Below are positions 8,901-16,353 of a DNA stretch of 64,000 nucleotides, piece by piece. Source of the DNA: Janthinobacterium sp. SUN073 (GTDB lineage Bacteria > Pseudomonadota > Gammaproteobacteria > Burkholderiales > Burkholderiaceae_D); NCBI RefSeq assembly GCF_030397665.1, contig NZ_JAPUBT010000003.1:186001-250000 (forward strand), in the 5' to 3' direction. Numbering within the stretch: the first letter of the stretch is position 1; the number at the start of each line of letters is the position of its first letter. The position numbers and the translations under genes are program-made. Under the pieces are notes generated by a model. That model ran no database searches. It worked only from the letters and a program-made list of their open reading frames with translations, and was not told the DNA's origin.

Positions 8901-9435
8901 CACGGACGGAGCCGCCCTGCGCGCCCAGGCCGTGCGCCGCGCCGTCGCCGCCAAGGCCGGCATCAAGCTGGAAGCGGGCGAGGAACCGGGGCCATTGAAC
9001 CTGGGCGAACGCAAGATACGGGGCGCCCTGCGCGAGCTGTACGGCGAACGCTTCGGCAAGGCCGAGCTGGACAAGCAGAAAAAGGCGGCTGAGTCCGCTG
9101 CGCCTGCTGCAGCGGCGGCATCCGCCGTTGCCTCCGCCCCGCCGGCAACGGCCAAAATCCCCGTCTTGCAGCGCCTGGGCAAGCTGATCGAAGGCGAACC
9201 GCAAGTGGCCGACACAGGCGCGTTTTATGGAGGCTTGCGCGAGCAACTGGAAGCCAGGCAGCCCCTGCCTGCCGATGCGCTCGCCAAGTTGGGCACCCAG
9301 CGCAGCGCGGCGATTCTGGCTGCCCTGCAGCAGGACGGCACGCCGGCAGCCAGGGTCAGCGCCGGTGCACCGGAAAAAACGGAGGCCGCGCCTGGCAAGC
9401 TGGTGGGGTTAAAGCTGGGATTGGCGGCGCAATAG
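5950..9435 (+). CDS. DUF748 domain-containing envelope protein (AsmA-like superfamily)
   Basis: A 1161-residue protein that starts at GTG 5950, behind an AAAAGG element. One membrane anchor near residues 23-45 is followed by a very long periplasmic region with the DUF748 pattern: repeated beta-rich blocks such as RFNPFTLRLEAEQI near the N-terminus and LPLELALAILKDSDGRIDL in the distal part. Alanine/proline linkers interrupt the blocks (around 356-372, 714-730 and 1055-1072). Near residue 945 is an OmpA-like stretch (FDAGSAVLLPPEREKL). DUF748 proteins belong to the AsmA/TamB-like group, thought to act in envelope lipid or outer-membrane homeostasis. That role is inferred from the group, not shown here. 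The gene stands alone. Confidence 0.85.
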   Translation: MNTIDKKSVQTKTIRWKRWQRWAVGTGCALAAYSAAGFWLVPYVIKHQLPKFAEKELARQASIADVRFNPFTLRLEAEQIAFKEAASADGKSNAPLLSIGALAVQLEWKSIVRRAWSLAEIRITAPQTHLTITPDGKFNLAEVLATWQRNHPEKSDGGMPRLVIAHFALEQGKVDWQDQKAGYADNFTPINFTLDNISTLPDANGSYSLSADAARGGKLHWRGTASLSPIRGEGELILNDASLPGLAAYLKAYTRATVTSGKLSARLPYAFSYADGKLQATVKGAGLALRDLALAQDGKGAPFTSLNTLGIAGVNVDLARQNVTVDKINLYGGKVAVRRDSRGEIDVANLMLPGNPEPVASATAAPAAPAKPGKWQVDLKQLALANVDVSAIDETVSPALQLSAKQLQLNLQLALQQGPAGMASVIDGANVSLADLAMQRGAQTPFKLAQLGFTDGKIDLAAHTVHLGAVTASGAQIDLARNRQGEFAIAQKLPVFASGKADSAKDAPSTPWSTKVDKVELSKFGARFDDAGTGIKGTLQDARLSLLNVSNDMKQALPFELGVGLREGGLLTAKGKFVPGTGAVDAQLNLKQLTLAPVQPLLAQHVKLKLAGGTLSGSGRLTTGGGAPKAPKVRYEGGVDIAGLVLNETDGKRFASWKSVRADKLTASVGPDFVDIPELRVVEPNAQLIIENDRSLNAQRLLVKAPEPATAPAPATASAPGAAAPDAAFPVRVRRVRLQNAKLDFADLSLRPQFAAKIYELNGVITGLSTKRDARSQIELDGRIDEFGLARVRGQLNPFAPTDNTDLNVVFKNVDMVSASPYTMKFAGYKVAEGKISLDLQYKVRNRQLDGTNQIVLDKLTLGERIDSPDALKLPLELALAILKDSDGRIDLGLPVSGDMNDPQFSYGALIWKAVGNVLTKIVTAPFRALGNLLGISADKLESIDFDAGSAVLLPPEREKLKQVAHILAKREQLKLAVPGQYSDTDGAALRAQAVRRAVAAKAGIKLEAGEEPGPLNLGERKIRGALRELYGERFGKAELDKQKKAAESAAPAAAAASAVASAPPATAKIPVLQRLGKLIEGEPQVADTGAFYGGLREQLEARQPLPADALAKLGTQRSAAILAALQQDGTPAARVSAGAPEKTEAAPGKLVGLKLGLAAQ

Positions 9436-9884
9436 TCTATTGAATAGGGCCTTGCCAGCCTGAATCGCCACCAGTCGTTTGGCCTCTTCTGATACATAGT
9501 TCATGAAAGATGAAAACCGATGGATCGTCTTGGGGGCCTGGGTGTCCTGGCTGGCACCTGGTGTGCGATCTCGTAGCGGCCTAATCCAACGACGAGGCAG
9601 GGTCTGGCGTCTCTATGGCCTGCCCTGCAGAGACTCCTGCCTCGCTCAAGTAAGAGCAGGCCTTTCCTTGTCAAAACAGAAGGCGGAGCCCGGCCCCGGT
9701 TTCCAGGCGCTAGTATATCGTGCATGTCTATTGCACAATGATTAACATCCACAGCTTGTCGCTCATCTTTACACTTCCCCTCGACTGCCACGGGCAATCC
9801 TGAGCAACCCTTGATTTAACAGAGCCCCAACGGATTGGCATAGTTAATGCTTAGCTAGTCCCATGAGGCCAACCAGGGGATTCC
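9436..9884. other. Gene-free accessory stretch with strong stem-loop
   Basis: This 449-base interval has no convincing gene: the two 80-98 codon frames in it lack family features, and the minus-strand one lacks a clear ribosome binding site. It contains a strong stem-loop (9593-9644) and alternative pairings around it, such as GGCCTGC at 9618-9624 against GCAGGCC at 9656-9662. The layout resembles the non-coding end of an IS110-family element, but I see no recombinase gene beside it. The last 60 bases should hold the promoter and ribosome binding site (AGGGG) of the operon that starts at 9885. Confidence 0.5.
9593..9644. repeat. Strong stem-loop (possible structured RNA)
   Basis: CGAGGCAGG at 9593-9601 pairs perfectly with CCTGCCTCG at 9636-9644. 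Inside it, GTCTCT at 9609-9614 pairs with AGAGAC at 9629-9634, leaving an asymmetric internal loop and a 14-base apical loop. There is no run of T after either end, so it does not look like an intrinsic terminator. An outer stem, internal loop and inner stem are the shape expected of a structured RNA. Confidence 0.55.
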
Positions 9885-10424
9885 ATGCTCAATACACTAC
9901 ACAAATCGTTCGGTAGCGCGCTGGCAGCACTCATACTGCTCGCGCTGGCACACAGCGCGCACGCGCTGCCGCTGCTCACGCTCACGTCAACACAGGCCAC
10001 CATACCGGCCTCGGCCGGTAGCAGCATCGGAATCACCGGCAGCATCATCAACCGGACCAACACGGCGCTGGACGCGACCGACCTGTTCCTGAATTTCGGC
10101 AATTTCGATCCGGGCGCGCTGACGCCACAGCAAACGTTGGGACTGGTCCTGTTCAGCATTCCCAGTTTTTCGTTCCGGGACAATGTTGCCCTGTTCACTA
10201 TCGACGTGGCGGCCAACGCGCTGCCCGGCGTGCATACGCTCGACGTGATGCTGCAGGACCTTGGCGGCAACTTCTCCGACGTCGTCAGCTTCAGCTTCCT
10301 GGTCAACCAAGTGGTGACCGTATCGGAGCCGCCCACGCTGGCCATCATGCTGGCCGGCCTGGCTGGCATGACCGGCATGATGCTTTTCCGTACTGTCTCC
10401 AACCATGGAGGCAATCATGGCTAG
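9885..10424 (+). CDS. Exported protein with PEP-CTERM-like tail
   Basis: A 179-residue protein with a Sec signal peptide (cleavage near residue 28, ...SAHA/LPLL), a beta-rich middle region rich in T, S, N and F, and a C-terminal tail at 147-170. The tail reads S-E-P-P-T-L-A-I then a hydrophobic helix (MLAGLAGMTGMMLF) then one arginine. This resembles a PEP-CTERM sorting signal, which normally has PEP, a hydrophobic helix and an RRR-type basic end, but the basic cluster is reduced. It is the first gene of a five-gene operon; AGGGG precedes the ATG. A surface or extracellular protein is likely; its function is unknown. Confidence 0.65.
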   Translation: MLNTLHKSFGSALAALILLALAHSAHALPLLTLTSTQATIPASAGSSIGITGSIINRTNTALDATDLFLNFGNFDPGALTPQQTLGLVLFSIPSFSFRDNVALFTIDVAANALPGVHTLDVMLQDLGGNFSDVVSFSFLVNQVVTVSEPPTLAIMLAGLAGMTGMMLFRTVSNHGGNHG

Positions 10425-11136
10425 CAAGCCACAGATCGCCACGGGCAACGCCACGGTCATCAACACCGGCGAAGAAGTCATCGTCTCGATCACTGTGACC
10501 AACATCGGTAGCGAAACCGCCAGCAAGGTGTTCCTGACCGGCGCCACACTGGGTGCGGCACGGCGAATCAGCCCGCAGAATTTTCCGGTGTACATCGGTA
10601 GCCTGACGACCGAAGGCAGTGGCAGCATAGGTGCCAGATTCAGCACCACCGGGCTGACGCCCGGCCAGCAATACCTGCTGACCCTGCGCGGCACCTACGA
10701 GGCCGGCGGCACGCTGGGCTTCGTCGTCAATCGCTACGTGATGATTCCGCAGCCGGCGCCGTATGCCTCGCCACGTCTGCGCTCGCATGTGAACGTGCTG
10801 CTGAGTAACGCCACCTGGACCTATACCATCTTCAACGATGAGCCGCTGGGCAGCTCCTTGTATATCGCCGCCTTCCACCTCGACATCGTGGCACCCACCA
10901 CCGTCACCGGCACGCCACACGGCTGGCAGTCCGAGTCCGACCTGATGACCTATGCGGGCTGGATTTCCGCTGATGCCCATATCGCGCCCCAGCAAGCGCT
11001 TGGCGGTTTCGAGATCCAAAGTCCGACCGGGCGCTCCGAGTCCACCGCCTACAGCCTGATCTCCTGGGACCATGCGGCCAACAATGCCGGACCGGTGGGG
11101 CTGGACACGGTACTGTCGCCATCCAGAGCACGATAG
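10417..11136 (+). CDS. Hypothetical beta-rich protein, CARDB/Ig-like N-terminal part
   Basis: A 239-residue protein whose first 100 residues look like an immunoglobulin-type or CARDB-like beta domain (alternating V/I/T strands such as EEVIVSITVTNIGSETASKV). A second beta-rich part of unknown type follows. I chose the ATG at 10417 because GGAGG lies six bases before it; an upstream in-frame ATG at 10405 lacks such a site. The gene overlaps the end of the preceding gene by 8 bases, so translational coupling is likely. No signal peptide or membrane segment is visible, which is odd between two exported proteins. It may stay in the cytoplasm, or leave with a partner. Confidence 0.6.
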   Translation: MASKPQIATGNATVINTGEEVIVSITVTNIGSETASKVFLTGATLGAARRISPQNFPVYIGSLTTEGSGSIGARFSTTGLTPGQQYLLTLRGTYEAGGTLGFVVNRYVMIPQPAPYASPRLRSHVNVLLSNATWTYTIFNDEPLGSSLYIAAFHLDIVAPTTVTGTPHGWQSESDLMTYAGWISADAHIAPQQALGGFEIQSPTGRSESTAYSLISWDHAANNAGPVGLDTVLSPSRAR

Positions 11137-11145
11137 GTGAACGAC

Positions 11146-12057
11146 ATGAAAACCTCAGACCATACCGTACTCGACGACATCGCACGCACGCTCGCTGGCG
11201 TCACCTCGCGCCGCGCCGCACTGAAAATGGTCGTGCTCGGCCTGGGCGGCATGACCCTGGCCCGCTTCGGCATCAACAACGCCTGGGCGGCGCGCAATTG
11301 CCTGTGCAATAACCGCGTGTACGACTCCGCCCTTGCCTGCTGCACGCCCAACGGCGTGGTGCAAAAGCACCCCATTGCCAATCTGGCGCACTGCCCTTCC
11401 CGCACCGCCAACCTGGCGCATACCTGTAGCGCCAATGGTTGCGGCGCGGCCGGATCGTGGGTGTCGCCGCCGCAAAGTTACTTCGGCGTCAGCTTCGTTC
11501 CCGCTTGCAATACTCACGATTGTTGCTACGACAAGTGCAACCAGAACAAGGCAGCGTGCGATACCAACTTCCTTAGTGAGCTTAACGCTATTTGCACCGC
11601 AGCCTTCCCCGGCACGGGCAACATACAGAACATCAAGCGCGGCGGTTGTCTGTCCCAGGCGCAGACCTATTACAACGCGGTGTCCTCGTATGGCCAAAAC
11701 GCGTATGACGACGCGCAGAAACTCTCGTGCGACTGCTGCCCGCCTGAGGCTTGCCGCACCTGCGCCGGCGGCAGTTGCGGCGCCTTCCCCGCATGCGTCG
11801 GCGGCGGCGACTGCGTGTGCTTTACGACGCCGAATGGCTCGGGCGTCTGCGTGCACGGCAATACTCCTTGTGCCGGTTTGCCCACCTGCAGCTCCAACGA
11901 CGATTGCCCACCGGGATACGGTTGCGCCGGCTCAAATTGTTGCGGCGGCACCGCATTGTGCGGGCCACTGTGCTCCGACCTGACGAACGCATCGATCATC
12001 TCGCCGTTTGGTGGCACTCAACGTTACGATGGACCTACCCTGGGAGGAAAGAGATAA
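11146..12057 (+). CDS. Tat-exported, cysteine-rich phospholipase A2-like protein
   Basis: A 303-residue protein from the ATG at 11146, which has AGGTG six bases upstream; a GTG at 11137 is possible. Residues 21-27 read SRRAALK, a twin-arginine motif, followed by a hydrophobic segment and an A-W-A cleavage region near 46-48. Residues 121-131 read CNTHDCCYDKC, the CxxHDxCY active-site signature of secreted phospholipase A2, with H124 and D125 as the expected catalytic pair. A cysteine-dense tail (about 195-277) resembles granulin/EGF-like knots. I count 32 cysteines, enough for 16 disulfides. The gene overlaps the following thiol-oxidoreductase fusion by one base. Expected activity is phospholipid ester hydrolysis, possibly calcium-dependent; this is inferred from the motif only. 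Confidence 0.7.
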   Translation: MKTSDHTVLDDIARTLAGVTSRRAALKMVVLGLGGMTLARFGINNAWAARNCLCNNRVYDSALACCTPNGVVQKHPIANLAHCPSRTANLAHTCSANGCGAAGSWVSPPQSYFGVSFVPACNTHDCCYDKCNQNKAACDTNFLSELNAICTAAFPGTGNIQNIKRGGCLSQAQTYYNAVSSYGQNAYDDAQKLSCDCCPPEACRTCAGGSCGAFPACVGGGDCVCFTTPNGSGVCVHGNTPCAGLPTCSSNDDCPPGYGCAGSNCCGGTALCGPLCSDLTNASIISPFGGTQRYDGPTLGGKR

Positions 12058-13121
12058 TGGACGCGTTCATAGTGCCATTCACCGTCTTGCGCCTGCTGTT
12101 GGGCGGCGTCTTGCTGATCGCCGCTGTTGGCAAGCTACTTCACCGGCAGGCGTACGCTCAAACGCTGGCGCAATTCGGTATTCCCACTGCGTTGCAGCCG
12201 CAACTGGCGTGGCTGATGCCGACGTGCGAACTGGCGATCGCCTTCATGCTGACGCTGGCGACGTCCACGTGGTGGGGCGCCAGCGCCGGCGCCGCCCTGC
12301 TGGCGCTCTACAGCACCGTGCTGGCGTACAAGCTGCAGCAAGGCCAGCGGCCCAGATGCAACTGCTTCGGTCAGCAGGACGCCACGCCGATCGGCCCCGC
12401 TACGCTGCTCAGGAACGGGGTACTGCTGTCGATGGCGGGCGCACTGATTTACGCTGGTCCGGCATACGCGCATGCTCCTGTATGGCCGCATCTGGCCAAG
12501 ATATTGGTCACGGCCCCGACACTGTCGATATGCATCGCCGTGATGGCGGTGCAATGGTGGCTGTTACTGCATACGCTGCGCCAGAACGGGCGCCTGATCT
12601 TGCGCATGGATACGCTGGAGCTGCGACTCGACGCCGCCAACATTCAGCCACTGCATGCGCTCGACATGCGGCCGCGCGGACTGGCAGTCGGCAGCATGGC
12701 GCCGGACTTCGCGCTGCCGGAAATGGGCACTGGCGAAGCGAAGACGCTGGCGCAGCTCAGGTCTGCCGGCCTGCCGGTGCTGCTGGTCTTCTCCGACATC
12801 GCCTGCGGCCCTTGTGCCGAACTGGCGCCGCGCATTGAGAGTTGGCATCGGCAATACCAGGGCTTGATCAGCATCGCCGTCATCCTGCGCGTCGATGCCG
12901 GACAGCTGCACCGTCCACATACCGCCGGCTCCTGCACCACGCTGCTGCAAGAGGACCGCAAGGTATCCGAGCGCTACGACGCGCTGGTGACTCCGAGCGC
13001 CGTACTGGTGTCCGCCGAGGGGACGATCGCATCGCATCTGGCGCTGGGCTCAAAAGACATATACGATCTACTGGAAGCAACCGCACCGCAGATCCATGAA
13101 AACCGGAACATCGCCGCTTAA
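12057..13121 (+). CDS. MauE-MauD-type fusion: DoxX/MauE membrane domain plus thioredoxin-like domain
   Basis: A 354-residue protein whose start overlaps the upstream stop (TAATG) behind GGAGGAAA. Residues 1-175 form a MauE-like domain with about five membrane segments and a CNCFG motif at 101-105. Residues 207-345 form a redoxin/thioredoxin-like domain with C250-G-P-C253 and a cis-proline-type loop (VTPSAVLV, 311-318). In methylamine utilisation, MauE and MauD are separate proteins needed to form the many disulfides of the amine dehydrogenase small subunit. Here they are one chain, next to a 32-cysteine protein, which suggests it is a dedicated oxidase for that protein. Motifs are seen; substrate assignment is inferred. 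Confidence 0.8.
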   Translation: MDAFIVPFTVLRLLLGGVLLIAAVGKLLHRQAYAQTLAQFGIPTALQPQLAWLMPTCELAIAFMLTLATSTWWGASAGAALLALYSTVLAYKLQQGQRPRCNCFGQQDATPIGPATLLRNGVLLSMAGALIYAGPAYAHAPVWPHLAKILVTAPTLSICIAVMAVQWWLLLHTLRQNGRLILRMDTLELRLDAANIQPLHALDMRPRGLAVGSMAPDFALPEMGTGEAKTLAQLRSAGLPVLLVFSDIACGPCAELAPRIESWHRQYQGLISIAVILRVDAGQLHRPHTAGSCTTLLQEDRKVSERYDALVTPSAVLVSAEGTIASHLALGSKDIYDLLEATAPQIHENRNIAA

Positions 13122-13479
13122 ATCCCCACGACAGGCAAGCCGGCTAGTGCTGACGGTCGGCACTAGCCTGCACCTGATCACCGCACTATTTCTGGCCAAC
13201 GGTGGCGGCATCGTCTTTCGGACGGCGCTGTGCGCCTGGTCGCTGGCGCCCTACCTATTGCTGGCACTTGCGCTACAACGCAGCAAGAATTGCGGCGCTC
13301 TGCTAGCCGGCGCCCTGCTGATGCTGCTGTTGGACGCGCACACCTACTGGTCGGTGTTCGTGGCCCCGCAAAGCTCCACTGCTGCATTGGGTCTGCTAAT
13401 GGCACCGTTGTTCAACCTGTTCTGCATGGCGCCGTTATCGATTGCAGCCAACATGTGGCTGGGCCACAGGCGATCTTAG
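13096..13479 (+). CDS. Small membrane protein of the PLA2/MauED operon (127 aa)
   Basis: A 127-residue hydrophobic protein with a basic N-terminus (MKTGTSPLKSPRQASR), about four predicted membrane segments (roughly 17-37, 43-60, 66-84 and 95-117) and a basic C-terminus. It starts 26 bases inside the preceding gene, so it is probably coupled to it and closes the operon. I recognise no family and see no catalytic motif. It could be a membrane partner of the thiol oxidoreductase, or an accessory or immunity-type protein, but nothing in the sequence decides this. Confidence 0.6.
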   Translation: MKTGTSPLKSPRQASRLVLTVGTSLHLITALFLANGGGIVFRTALCAWSLAPYLLLALALQRSKNCGALLAGALLMLLLDAHTYWSVFVAPQSSTAALGLLMAPLFNLFCMAPLSIAANMWLGHRRS

Positions 13480-13483
13480 AGGG

Positions 13484-13732
13484 GAGCCCGATTTTTTACA
13501 CATGCATATCAGGGACTTGCCGCACATGTCCGAGGAAGCCGAACGCCGTTATCTGTTCGTCGCCATCGACCGCGCCACGCGCCGGATCTTCATGGGCATC
13601 TATGCCGACCAATCCGACAGCTGCAGCTCCGACTTTTTCAACAAGGTCAAAATGGCCTCTCCGGTCACTTTCCTCACACTATTCACTGGCAACGGCAGCC
13701 AGTTCACGGACCGCTTCACCAGCAAGACTTGA
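13484..13732 (+). pseudogene. IS481-family transposase fragment (degenerate DDE core)
   Basis: This frame encodes only the middle of an IS481-type integrase-core transposase. It is recognisable from FLHMHIRDLPHMS, RRYLFVAIDRATR and LTLFTGNGSQFTDRF. The usual catalytic aspartates are lost: the family pattern HxDIKYLP reads HMHIRDLP here, and the TDNGS/EF motif reads TGNGSQF. The N-terminal helix-turn-helix and the C-terminal part with the third acidic residue are absent, and there is a stop soon after the second motif. It lies just behind the accessory operon and is a dead remnant. Confidence 0.8.
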
Positions 13733-13872
13733 TACGCGCCAGAGCACGTCTCGATGAGCCCAATCTCGACTTCACCGATTTTCCCTATTTTGCCGCAGAG
13801 CGGATAGAACTGATTGTGTAAAAAGACGACGCTGTCATGCTGCGCGATTTCCCCGCTGTGCGGCACCGCCGA

Positions 13873-13897
13873 GGCGGCGCTGCACAGCGATGCCGCC
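13873..13897 (-). terminator. Hairpin directly after gcd, terminator-like without T run
   Basis: GGCGG (13873-13877) and CGCTG (13878-13882) pair with CAGCG (13885-13889) and CCGCC (13893-13897), with only a small bulge, just past the stop of the glucose dehydrogenase gene on the minus strand. No U-rich tract follows, so it may be a 3' stabiliser rather than a true intrinsic terminator. Confidence 0.35.
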
Positions 13898-13899
13898 CC

Positions 13900-16353
13900 C
13901 TACTTGTCTTTGCCTCCTGCTGACACCCCCTCGTCCGGCAAGGCAAACGCCACCAGGCTATCGCCCATCTTCGTGCCCAGCGACCCATGGCCGCCGGCCA
14001 TCACCACCACATACTGCTTGCCGGTCTTGTCGGAGACATAACTCATCGGCGTGGCCTGGCCGCCGGCCGGCAGACGGGCTTTCCAGACGGTTTTGCCGTT
14101 GCGCACGTCGTAGCCGCGGATGGTGTAGTCGAGCGTGCTGCTGAGGAAGGCCACGCCGCCACCCGTGGTGCTGATGCCGCCCAGGCTGGGCACGCCCAGC
14201 GGCAAGGCGATGGGCACGGGGGCGCTGTCGCGCGTGGTGCCGTTCTTGTGCATCCACACTTTTTTCATGGTGCGCAAGTCGACGGCGGCGATATAGCCCC
14301 ACGGCGGCGCCTGGCATGGAAAGCCCAGCGGCGACAGGAAAGGCTTGATTTCCACGGCAAACGGCACGCCCGTCTGCGGCTGCAAGCCCATTTCAGTACC
14401 CGTGCCGCCCGGCGCATTGGCTTGCGCGCGCGGCACCAGGCGTTCCAGGAAGCCCATGTAGTCGGGATTAACTAACAGCAACTGACGCACGGGATCGACG
14501 GCCGCCCCGCCCCATTCGAAGATGCCGAGCGGGCCCGGCGAAATGATGGCGCCCTTGATCTTGCCTTCGGCCACCGTTTGCGGCGTGAACGGCCCTTCGT
14601 AGCGGTGCTGGCGGAAGATGATGCGGCAAGCGAGCTGGTCGAATGGCGTCGTGCCCCACATATCCGTTTCGCTGATGTGTTTTTCAGGCAGGAACGTGAG
14701 GGCCGAGAACGGCTGCGTGGGCGACAACTTGTCGCCAGGCGCGGCGTTGGCCGTCGGCACGGGCTTTTCCGGCGCCGGCACCACCAGGCTGCCATCGCGC
14801 CGGTCGATCACATAGATGTCGCCGCGCTTGGTGGTGGCCACGACCGATGGCACTTTACCTTTCGGCGTGTCGATGTCGACCAGCGTGGGCTGGCCGCCGA
14901 TATCCATGTCCCAGATATCGTGGTGCACGGTCTGGTACACCCAACGTACTTTCCCGGTGACAAGATCAAGCGCGACGATGGCACTATTGTATTTCTCGCC
15001 GTTCGGATTGCGCTTGCCACCCCATGTATCGGGCGTTTCATTGCCCATCGGAATGTAGACCATGCCCAATTTTTCATCCACGCTGGACACGCCCCAGGAA
15101 TTCGGTGAATTGTTGGTGTACGTCTTGCCGTCAAGAATCGGCGCCGTGTCGTCCGGATTCGAGGCATCCCAGTTCCACATCAGTTTGCCAGTGACGGGAT
15201 CGTAGCCGCGGATCACGCCCGAGGGCTCTTCCGTGGAAAAATTATCGGTCACGCTGGCGGCCATCACCACCACGTTCTGCGCCACGGCCGGCGGCGACGT
15301 GGGCATCAAGAAGCCCCGCTTCTTCATGCCCATGCCGTGGTACAGGCCGATCACGCCGTTTTCGCCGAAGCTTTTGCACGCTGCGCCCGTATCGGCATTC
15401 ACGGCGATCAGGGTCGCATCCATGGTGGGCGCGAAGATGCGGCGCGGACACTCCATGCCGGCCGCCTCGGGCGCCGGATCGCCCTTGGCGCGGCCCGCGT
15501 TGACGTCCCAGTAGGCCACGCCGCGGCAAATCATGTGCTGGTAGCTGGACGCATCGCGGTTGATCTTCGGATCGTGGCGCCACAGTTCCTTGCCCGTGTC
15601 CGGGTCCAGCGCGATGACGATGTTATGCGGCGTGCACAGATACAGCATGCCGTTCACTTTCAGCGGCGTGACTTCATTGGCGATCTCGCCCGGATCGTTC
15701 GGGCCCTTGAAGTCGCCCGTGTGGTACACCCATGCCTGTTTCAGCTGCGCGGCGTTGGCCGGCGTGATCTGCGCGGCCGGCGCGTAGCGGTCGCCATAGC
15801 CGGAGCGGCCATACGCGGCCCAGTCGTTGGGCGCCACGCCCGGCGCGAAGTCGCCTTGCGGCGCGGCCGCCATGTTTTTGGCCGGCACTTCACCGTGCAG
15901 CGTGTGGTAATCCTGGAACAGCGAAAACACGCCCACGGCAGCCGTCAGCACCACGGCGGCGGCCAGGGCGCTCTTGCCCGCGTCGCGCGGTTTCGCCCCG
16001 GCGGCCAACGGCGGAGCGAGGCGGCGGTCGATGAAGGGCAGCAGCAGCAGCCAGACGGCGGCGGCGAACCAGATATCGAGACGGGGCAGCAATTGCCACC
16101 AGTCGAACTTCACTTCGATGACGGACCAGATCAGGGTGGCGAACAGCAGCAGCGCGAGAAACAGCTGGGCGCTGCGCCGCCCCTTCCACACCAGCGCACC
16201 GGCGACCAGCATGCCGATGCCAGCCACGACGTAATACCAGGAGCCGCCAAGGCTGACGAGCCAGGCGCCACCGCCGGCAAGCGCCAGGCCCAGCAAGATG
16301 AAGATGACTGCAGTGAGGATAAGCAAGGGTCCAGGCCGGGCAGAGGCAGTCAT
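13900..16353 (-). CDS. gcd: Membrane-bound PQQ-dependent glucose dehydrogenase
   Basis: An 817-residue protein with the typical Gcd layout. An N-terminal membrane domain of five segments (about residues 8-150) anchors it in the inner membrane. A periplasmic eight-bladed quinoprotein propeller follows, with characteristic stretches such as DWAAYGRSGYGDRYAPAAQI and the tryptophan-docking motifs of PQQ enzymes. It oxidises periplasmic glucose to gluconolactone and passes electrons to ubiquinone. Length matches the E. coli family member (about 796). No pqq biosynthesis genes are in this window, so PQQ must come from elsewhere in the genome or from outside. The gene is monocistronic and divergent from the chemoreceptor gene. 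Confidence 0.93.
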   Translation of the reverse strand: MTASARPGPLLILTAVIFILLGLALAGGGAWLVSLGGSWYYVVAGIGMLVAGALVWKGRRSAQLFLALLLFATLIWSVIEVKFDWWQLLPRLDIWFAAAVWLLLLPFIDRRLAPPLAAGAKPRDAGKSALAAAVVLTAAVGVFSLFQDYHTLHGEVPAKNMAAAPQGDFAPGVAPNDWAAYGRSGYGDRYAPAAQITPANAAQLKQAWVYHTGDFKGPNDPGEIANEVTPLKVNGMLYLCTPHNIVIALDPDTGKELWRHDPKINRDASSYQHMICRGVAYWDVNAGRAKGDPAPEAAGMECPRRIFAPTMDATLIAVNADTGAACKSFGENGVIGLYHGMGMKKRGFLMPTSPPAVAQNVVVMAASVTDNFSTEEPSGVIRGYDPVTGKLMWNWDASNPDDTAPILDGKTYTNNSPNSWGVSSVDEKLGMVYIPMGNETPDTWGGKRNPNGEKYNSAIVALDLVTGKVRWVYQTVHHDIWDMDIGGQPTLVDIDTPKGKVPSVVATTKRGDIYVIDRRDGSLVVPAPEKPVPTANAAPGDKLSPTQPFSALTFLPEKHISETDMWGTTPFDQLACRIIFRQHRYEGPFTPQTVAEGKIKGAIISPGPLGIFEWGGAAVDPVRQLLLVNPDYMGFLERLVPRAQANAPGGTGTEMGLQPQTGVPFAVEIKPFLSPLGFPCQAPPWGYIAAVDLRTMKKVWMHKNGTTRDSAPVPIALPLGVPSLGGISTTGGGVAFLSSTLDYTIRGYDVRNGKTVWKARLPAGGQATPMSYVSDKTGKQYVVVMAGGHGSLGTKMGDSLVAFALPDEGVSAGGKDK

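Follow-up and report, generated by a model that had tools for sequence, protein, structure and literature searches.

MauA, the cysteine-rich exported subunit of methylamine dehydrogenase, is borne by the twin-arginine translocation (Tat) pathway and carries six disulfides. In Paracoccus denitrificans, maturation of this enzyme involves MauE and a thioredoxin-like partner, MauD; in the available part of the source, MauE is speculated to form disulfides and the function of MauD is described as unclear (PMC7794033). Here we analyze five genes, designated A to E, at positions 9885 to 13479 of a 64,000-nucleotide stretch of Janthinobacterium sp. SUN073 (contig NZ_JAPUBT010000003.1, positions 186,001 to 250,000 of the forward strand; hereafter, the window), which likewise bring together a MauE domain, a thioredoxin-like domain and a cysteine-rich protein with a predicted export signal. 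In contrast to the mau system, both redox parts belong to one polypeptide, the product of gene D, and the candidate client, the product of gene C, is a phospholipase A2 (PLA2) family protein rather than a dehydrogenase subunit; moreover, D scores far below the NCBIfam cut-off of the MauD equivalog TIGR02661 (19.8 bits against 188.6).

Several other described systems share parts of this arrangement. The group XII secreted PLA2s (PF06951) have in common with C the histidine-aspartate (HD) dyad, a second aspartate and cysteines at the places of classical disulfides, but C adds a Tat-type signal, a cysteine-rich C-terminal tail and an operon with D. The catalytic His, Asp and Asp of the group XIV PLA2s of Streptomyces violaceoruber and Tuber borchii also align with C, and the same triad is described for these two enzymes and for TtaP (PMC11525133). 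However, two disulfides or none are given for these proteins in the accessible portions of the reports (PMC6635587, PMC11525133), and C falls below the cut-off of the prokaryotic PLA2 family, group XIV (PF09056; 26.3 bits against 29.4). Genes of the mau type appear to have been re-used in another context in the decRiPPter candidate clusters for ribosomally synthesized and post-translationally modified peptides as well, but those are candidate peptide clusters of Streptomyces, and the part of the paper at hand mentions no PLA2 (PMC7794033). Finally, in Tat hitchhiker complexes, such as Ni-Fe hydrogenases and formate dehydrogenases, a partner that lacks a signal is carried by one that has a Tat signal (PMC10924467); unlike in those complexes, the binding of B to C is putative, and hitchhiking of B with C is our proposal. 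Among the matches listed in a search of the open-licence literature, no title or abstract start paired a PLA2 with a MauE-type enzyme. To our knowledge, disulfide enzymes dedicated to a single client are few.

We consider it probable that the five genes form a mobile operon from which an exported PLA2 is made and then matured by a MauE/MauD-like enzyme of its own. The operon is real, conserved and mobile and, as far as our searches reach, undescribed; a well-supported association links the PLA2 with what, from the sequences, appears to be a disulfide enzyme of its own. The genes are as follows (aa, amino acids).

9885-10424, plus strand: gene A, 179 aa, exported protein with an N-terminal signal and a PEP-CTERM-like tail
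10405-11136, plus strand: gene B, 243 aa, two Ig-like beta-sandwich domains
11137 (GTG) or 11146 (ATG) to 12057, plus strand: gene C, 306 or 303 aa, PLA2 with a Tat-type signal
12057-13121, plus strand: gene D, 354 aa, MauE membrane domain and TlpA/MauD-like thioredoxin domain
13096-13479, plus strand: gene E, 127 aa, small, hydrophobic, probably a membrane protein

All five open reading frames were confirmed at the coordinates reported by the first-pass annotation, an earlier reading of the bare sequence that had also described C as carrying a CxxHDxCY site and 32 cysteines. The junctions agree as well: A and B overlap by 20 bases, B and C abut, C and D have one base in common, and D and E overlap by 26. 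Because A to D have conserved protein homologues in other genera and the ratio of nonsynonymous to synonymous substitution rates (dN/dS) was below 1 in all 27 gene comparisons, the set cannot be put down to an accident of open reading frames. Over six pairs each, dN/dS was 0.22-0.79 for A, 0.10-0.30 for B, 0.05-0.33 for C and 0.09-0.55 for D, so that B and C are the most tightly constrained genes of the operon; E, at 0.48-0.76 over three pairs, is weakly constrained on this measure, the pairs within the genus resting on few changes. Two promoter-like sites were found where 1.3 were expected, and two terminator-like sites where 3.2 were expected.

C was matched in 7 of the 294 genomes of the family sample, namely six strong matches (the window's own genome and five of genus g11) and a weak one in G060 (33% identity over 91 residues), and D in 7 of 288, namely these six again plus G173, where the match is partial; C and D lie side by side in all six strong genomes. 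A scan of the genome contig collection with an alignment yielded five loci, three from Massilia, one from Roseateles noduli and one from a Rubrivivax metagenome-assembled genome, whereas the single-sequence scan found no relative there. The three Massilia loci, which come from the same family as the window's organism, were already among the five g11 genomes and are counted once. A DNA search of 40 genomes of the window's genus placed the cassette in three (the window's own, G1222 and G1216) among the matches listed. The ten genomes with a strong C match are thus the three of the window's genus, the five of g11, R. noduli and the Rubrivivax genome, and in every one of them A, B, C and D stand in this order, at four kinds of site. 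The pairing of C with D extends across bacteria that are only distantly related. The first-pass annotation would have given up its reading had the five genes never recurred together; all five do so in three genomes and A to D in ten, although among these cassettes only those of the window's genus include E.

Class-wide, PF06951 matched 3 of 369 genomes, of which the window's own was alone above the cut-off; order-wide, the C alignment matched 2 of 300, the window's own and G708, and the latter match (L035) was rejected as chance, as it lies opposite a cheB-like gene. Phylum-wide, the D alignment at E <= 1e-15 matched 1 of 299 genomes, again the window's own. The phylum-wide D search scored no more than six candidates per genome, and the family D and order-wide C searches no more than seven, so some misses are possible. 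The plasmid search gave no match. A protein annotated as a phospholipase A2 domain protein in one Vibrio phage (two records) is distantly similar to C, 33% identical over a third of its length, and the viral contig IMGVR_UViG_3300035696_003027 encodes another distant relative (L033, 8001-8378; 33% over query residues 55-186), at a locus searched with the window proteins only. The 18-19 kb examined around three weak PLA2 relatives (L024, L026 and L027) contained no D-like gene at E <= 0.1.

Judged from its sequence, C is a group XII-type secreted PLA2-family protein with a Tat-type signal and 32 to 34 cysteines. Its features are listed below; residues are numbered from the ATG at 11146, whereas the alignments and the structure model begin one residue later.

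11146..11289 (end approximate), plus strand: Tat-type signal, with SRRAALK, a hydrophobic stretch and AWA, as read from the sequence
11314..11742, plus strand: PLA2 core, matched by PF06951
11515..11520, plus strand: codons of H124 and D125, equivalents of His48 and Asp49, invariant in 10 of 10 homologues
11560..11562, plus strand: codon of D139, equivalent of Asp99, invariant in 10 of 10
11728..11985, plus strand: cysteine-rich C-terminal tail

The match to PF06951 (43.3 bits) exceeds the Pfam gathering cut-off of 34, and the family was matched by all six members of set A1 and all six of set A5 (E <= 0.01). The motif CNTHDCCY fits the pattern CxxHDxCY; H124 and D125 align with the HD of all four PLA2s of known structure, D139 aligns with the second Asp in three of these, and the NGCGAAG that precedes the dyad is invariant in all ten C proteins. 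Because the structure model of C is poor (pLDDT 46, and 57 in the H124/D125 block, from a six-sequence alignment), the assignment of the active site is grounded in these alignments; the best two matches of the model, by VIA-align 2 on ranked chains, were PLA2 crystal structures. The twin arginine, the lysine and the AxA of the signal are kept in all ten homologues. By the Kyte-Doolittle scale, the hydrophobic stretch is weak, with no segment above 1.6; Tat signals are often only weakly hydrophobic. Hence both the PLA2 family and the Tat-type signal that the first-pass annotation had ascribed to C hold up.

The window copy of C has exactly 32 cysteines, all of which are kept in 10 of 10 homologues, and only two other columns are ever cysteine across the ten. 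Seven proteins have cysteine at both of these additional positions; the three proteins from the window's genus have lost both, with Ala at residue 120 and Glu, Ala or Ser at residue 145. Counted from the HD and CD motifs, the extra pair maps, in our own mapping, to Cys44 and Cys105, the two partners of one disulfide of classical PLA2s according to the part of the source available (PMC6251196); the joint loss of the two, as read from the alignment, is probably a single event. No Pfam or NCBIfam match was reported for the cysteine-rich tail.

The fusion that had been proposed for D is likewise supported, with a MauE match of 90.8 bits (PF07291, cut-off 27) and a TlpA/AhpC-type thioredoxin match of 30.0 bits (PF00578, cut-off 26). 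Each part has its own pair of cysteines.

12357..12365, plus strand: CNC motif in the MauE part, both cysteines invariant in 10 of 10 homologues
12804..12815, plus strand: CGPC site in the thioredoxin part, both cysteines invariant in 10 of 10, CAPC in 7 of 10

D is the only one of the five genes that Pfam and NCBIfam recognize as mau-related, and the genomes were not searched for further mau genes. In G173, a 446-aa frame (L025, 8953-10011) was matched twice by D, each time with the thioredoxin half included, which suggests tandem thioredoxin domains.

What D does to its presumed client is less certain than that it accompanies it. The first-pass annotation had called it the module's own thiol oxidase, and this is unproven, given that a CGPC or CAPC site suits reduction or isomerization equally well. 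D could instead act as a reductase or isomerase, repairing wrongly paired cysteines of C while the host Dsb system performs the oxidation, an alternative that we regard as a serious possibility, albeit short of probable. In line with it, the site is accompanied by Thr-Pro in all ten homologues, among the relatives of the thioredoxin part that have a solved structure and a name, most are ResA or similar thioredoxins of the reductase type (22 sequences), and the 16 to 17 disulfides possible in C would presumably require proofreading. Because DsbB is present in all ten cassette genomes, D may refine disulfides rather than introduce them. Against this alternative, MauE has been linked in print, as a speculation, to disulfide formation (PMC7794033, as far as the available part goes).

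Two relic loci of genus g40, in G166 and G133, bear on the dependence of D on C, which was found in neither genome. In G166, an E homologue follows a remnant of D that matches clearly at its C-terminal end (67% over 49 residues, E 1.6e-13) but at its N-terminal end over 21 residues only (E 6.5); the segment between the two, where both redox motifs would lie, is gone. In G133, the frame of B is uninterrupted, the one TGA reported in it being the stop codon of the gene, and is preceded by a frame that resembles A by eye only, in its signal and VPEP tail, with no tblastn match. Behind this B, with no C in between, comes a D-like frame that matches a g11 D at 40% over 145 residues (E 1.1e-22); its site reads SAPC and CNC is missing. 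The redox sites of D are thus lost at both loci that lack C and kept at all ten that have it. Such loss fits a dedicated D, but the simple erosion of an operon already broken would leave the same picture. Tat moves folded proteins, whereas the thiol sites of D should, by analogy, act outside the cytoplasm, a tension that the first-pass annotation passed over.

The cassette is mobile, as comparison within the genus demonstrates.

9736..13474, no strand assigned: block present as a unit, and 94% identical, at another chromosomal site in G1216
13505..13727, no strand assigned: integrase-core (rve) like fragment downstream of E, about 220 bases long; the slightly wider stretch 13484-13727 scores 20.8 bits, short of the cut-off (32.6)

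In G1226, the flanking genes, encoding a DUF748 protein and a PQQ dehydrogenase, lie 90 bases apart without the cassette, and both flanks are close together in many genomes of the genus. G1222 carries the cassette at the same site as the window, without the rve-like fragment behind E. Pieces 74-86% identical to this fragment occur in several genomes of the genus, with a second copy in the window's own genome (C1:1084920). Upstream of the cassette, window positions 9461-9688 belong to a dispersed repeat found at many sites in the genus, up to about 230 bases long and about 75-83% identical. No repeats bracket the block; those found within 9400-13960 are short and have one or more of their arms or copies within it. 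Pfam and NCBIfam revealed no transposase among the five cassette genes.

Movement between sites, the patchy distribution in the genus and the ability of PLA2 activity to lyse membranes could also be taken to indicate an operon for antagonism, with C as a lytic toxin against other cells. We think this improbable: neither an immunity gene nor an outer-membrane secretion gene was recognized among the five by Pfam or NCBIfam, there was no PADLOC match at E <= 0.01, and an enzyme for nutrient scavenging or surface remodelling would explain the patchiness equally well. The toxic or lytic character attributed to C by the first-pass annotation is unproven.

The description of A as PEP-CTERM-like is weak for the window copy, which has the degenerate SEPP of the window's genus and falls below the NCBIfam PEP-CTERM subfamily cut-offs, but the tail is classic (VPEP or LPEP, a helix and Arg) in seven of ten homologues. 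An exosortase (PF09721) is encoded in all ten cassette genomes; because it is also present in 39 of 40 genomes of the window's genus, it says nothing specific about A. With this general exosortase and no transporter among the five genes, the self-contained secretion module that had been suggested is not supported. E occurs in all three cassettes of the window's genus and beside the D relic of G166, whereas no E-like match was found behind D in the five g11 loci or the two Roseateles-type loci (E <= 0.1); a search of 195 family genomes with E listed the window's own genome and G166 among its matches, and not G1222 or G1216.

B contains no cysteine in the window, and none of its ten homologues has a hydrophobic N-terminal signal. 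Because its structure matches, among which no single family is dominant, mix cytosolic proteins (COPI, AP2, transglutaminases) with extracellular ones, the fold leaves its site of action unsettled; profile comparison gave no convincing similarity between A and B. The B alignment matched 12 of 145 family genomes, of which the window, G111, G133 and G008 were taken as real; the other eight, spanning about 80 columns of the second half of B (E 2.3e-6 to 7.6e-4), were set aside, and translation of three of them (L078, L079, L081) disclosed nothing B-like. In G008 (L085, 623-3262), a single 879-aa open frame without C joins an A-like PEP-CTERM segment (45% over 83 residues), a B-like Ig domain (42% over 100) and a long secreted-looking part. 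Because the B-like part there sits directly after a signal-like hydrophobic stretch, a location of B outside the cytoplasm is plausible. Riding on the Tat signal of C would be a simple, if hypothetical, export route for B; alternatively, B could be a cytoplasmic chaperone of C. Another reading, in which C is a disulfide-rich surface protein that has the PLA2 scaffold but no catalytic activity, and A and B build a structure outside the cell, would agree with the large cysteine-rich tail of C, the structural look of both partners and the G008 frame, but the invariance of the active-site His, Asp and Asp in all ten homologues makes this quite unlikely.

Taken together, these observations are compatible with a simple model of PLA2 maturation. 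Under this model, C would be exported by Tat and hydrolyze phospholipids outside the cytoplasm, and the thioredoxin domain of D, in the periplasm, would make or reshuffle its disulfides, the CxC motif of the MauE membrane part keeping that domain in its redox state. By analogy, D would do for C what MauE and MauD presumably do for the cysteine-rich methylamine dehydrogenase subunit. B, Ig-like and lacking a signal, probably acts as a partner of C and is perhaps co-exported, and A is probably a companion that is sorted to the surface and on which the host exosortase acts. A more specific version, which we put forward as doubtful, is a transferable Tat export-and-folding cassette in which B binds C before export and hitchhikes with it, the single-chain D, dedicated to C, finishes the 16 to 17 disulfides outside, and loss of the client lets the motifs of D decay.

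If the preferred reading, an exported PLA2 matured by a dedicated MauE/MauD-like enzyme, is correct, bacterial lipases would gain a Tat-borne, disulfide-dense PLA2. Moreover, the presence of D beside a PLA2 client that can be assayed in a laboratory host would make the function of the MauE/MauD pair, open in the available part of the literature (PMC7794033), directly testable.
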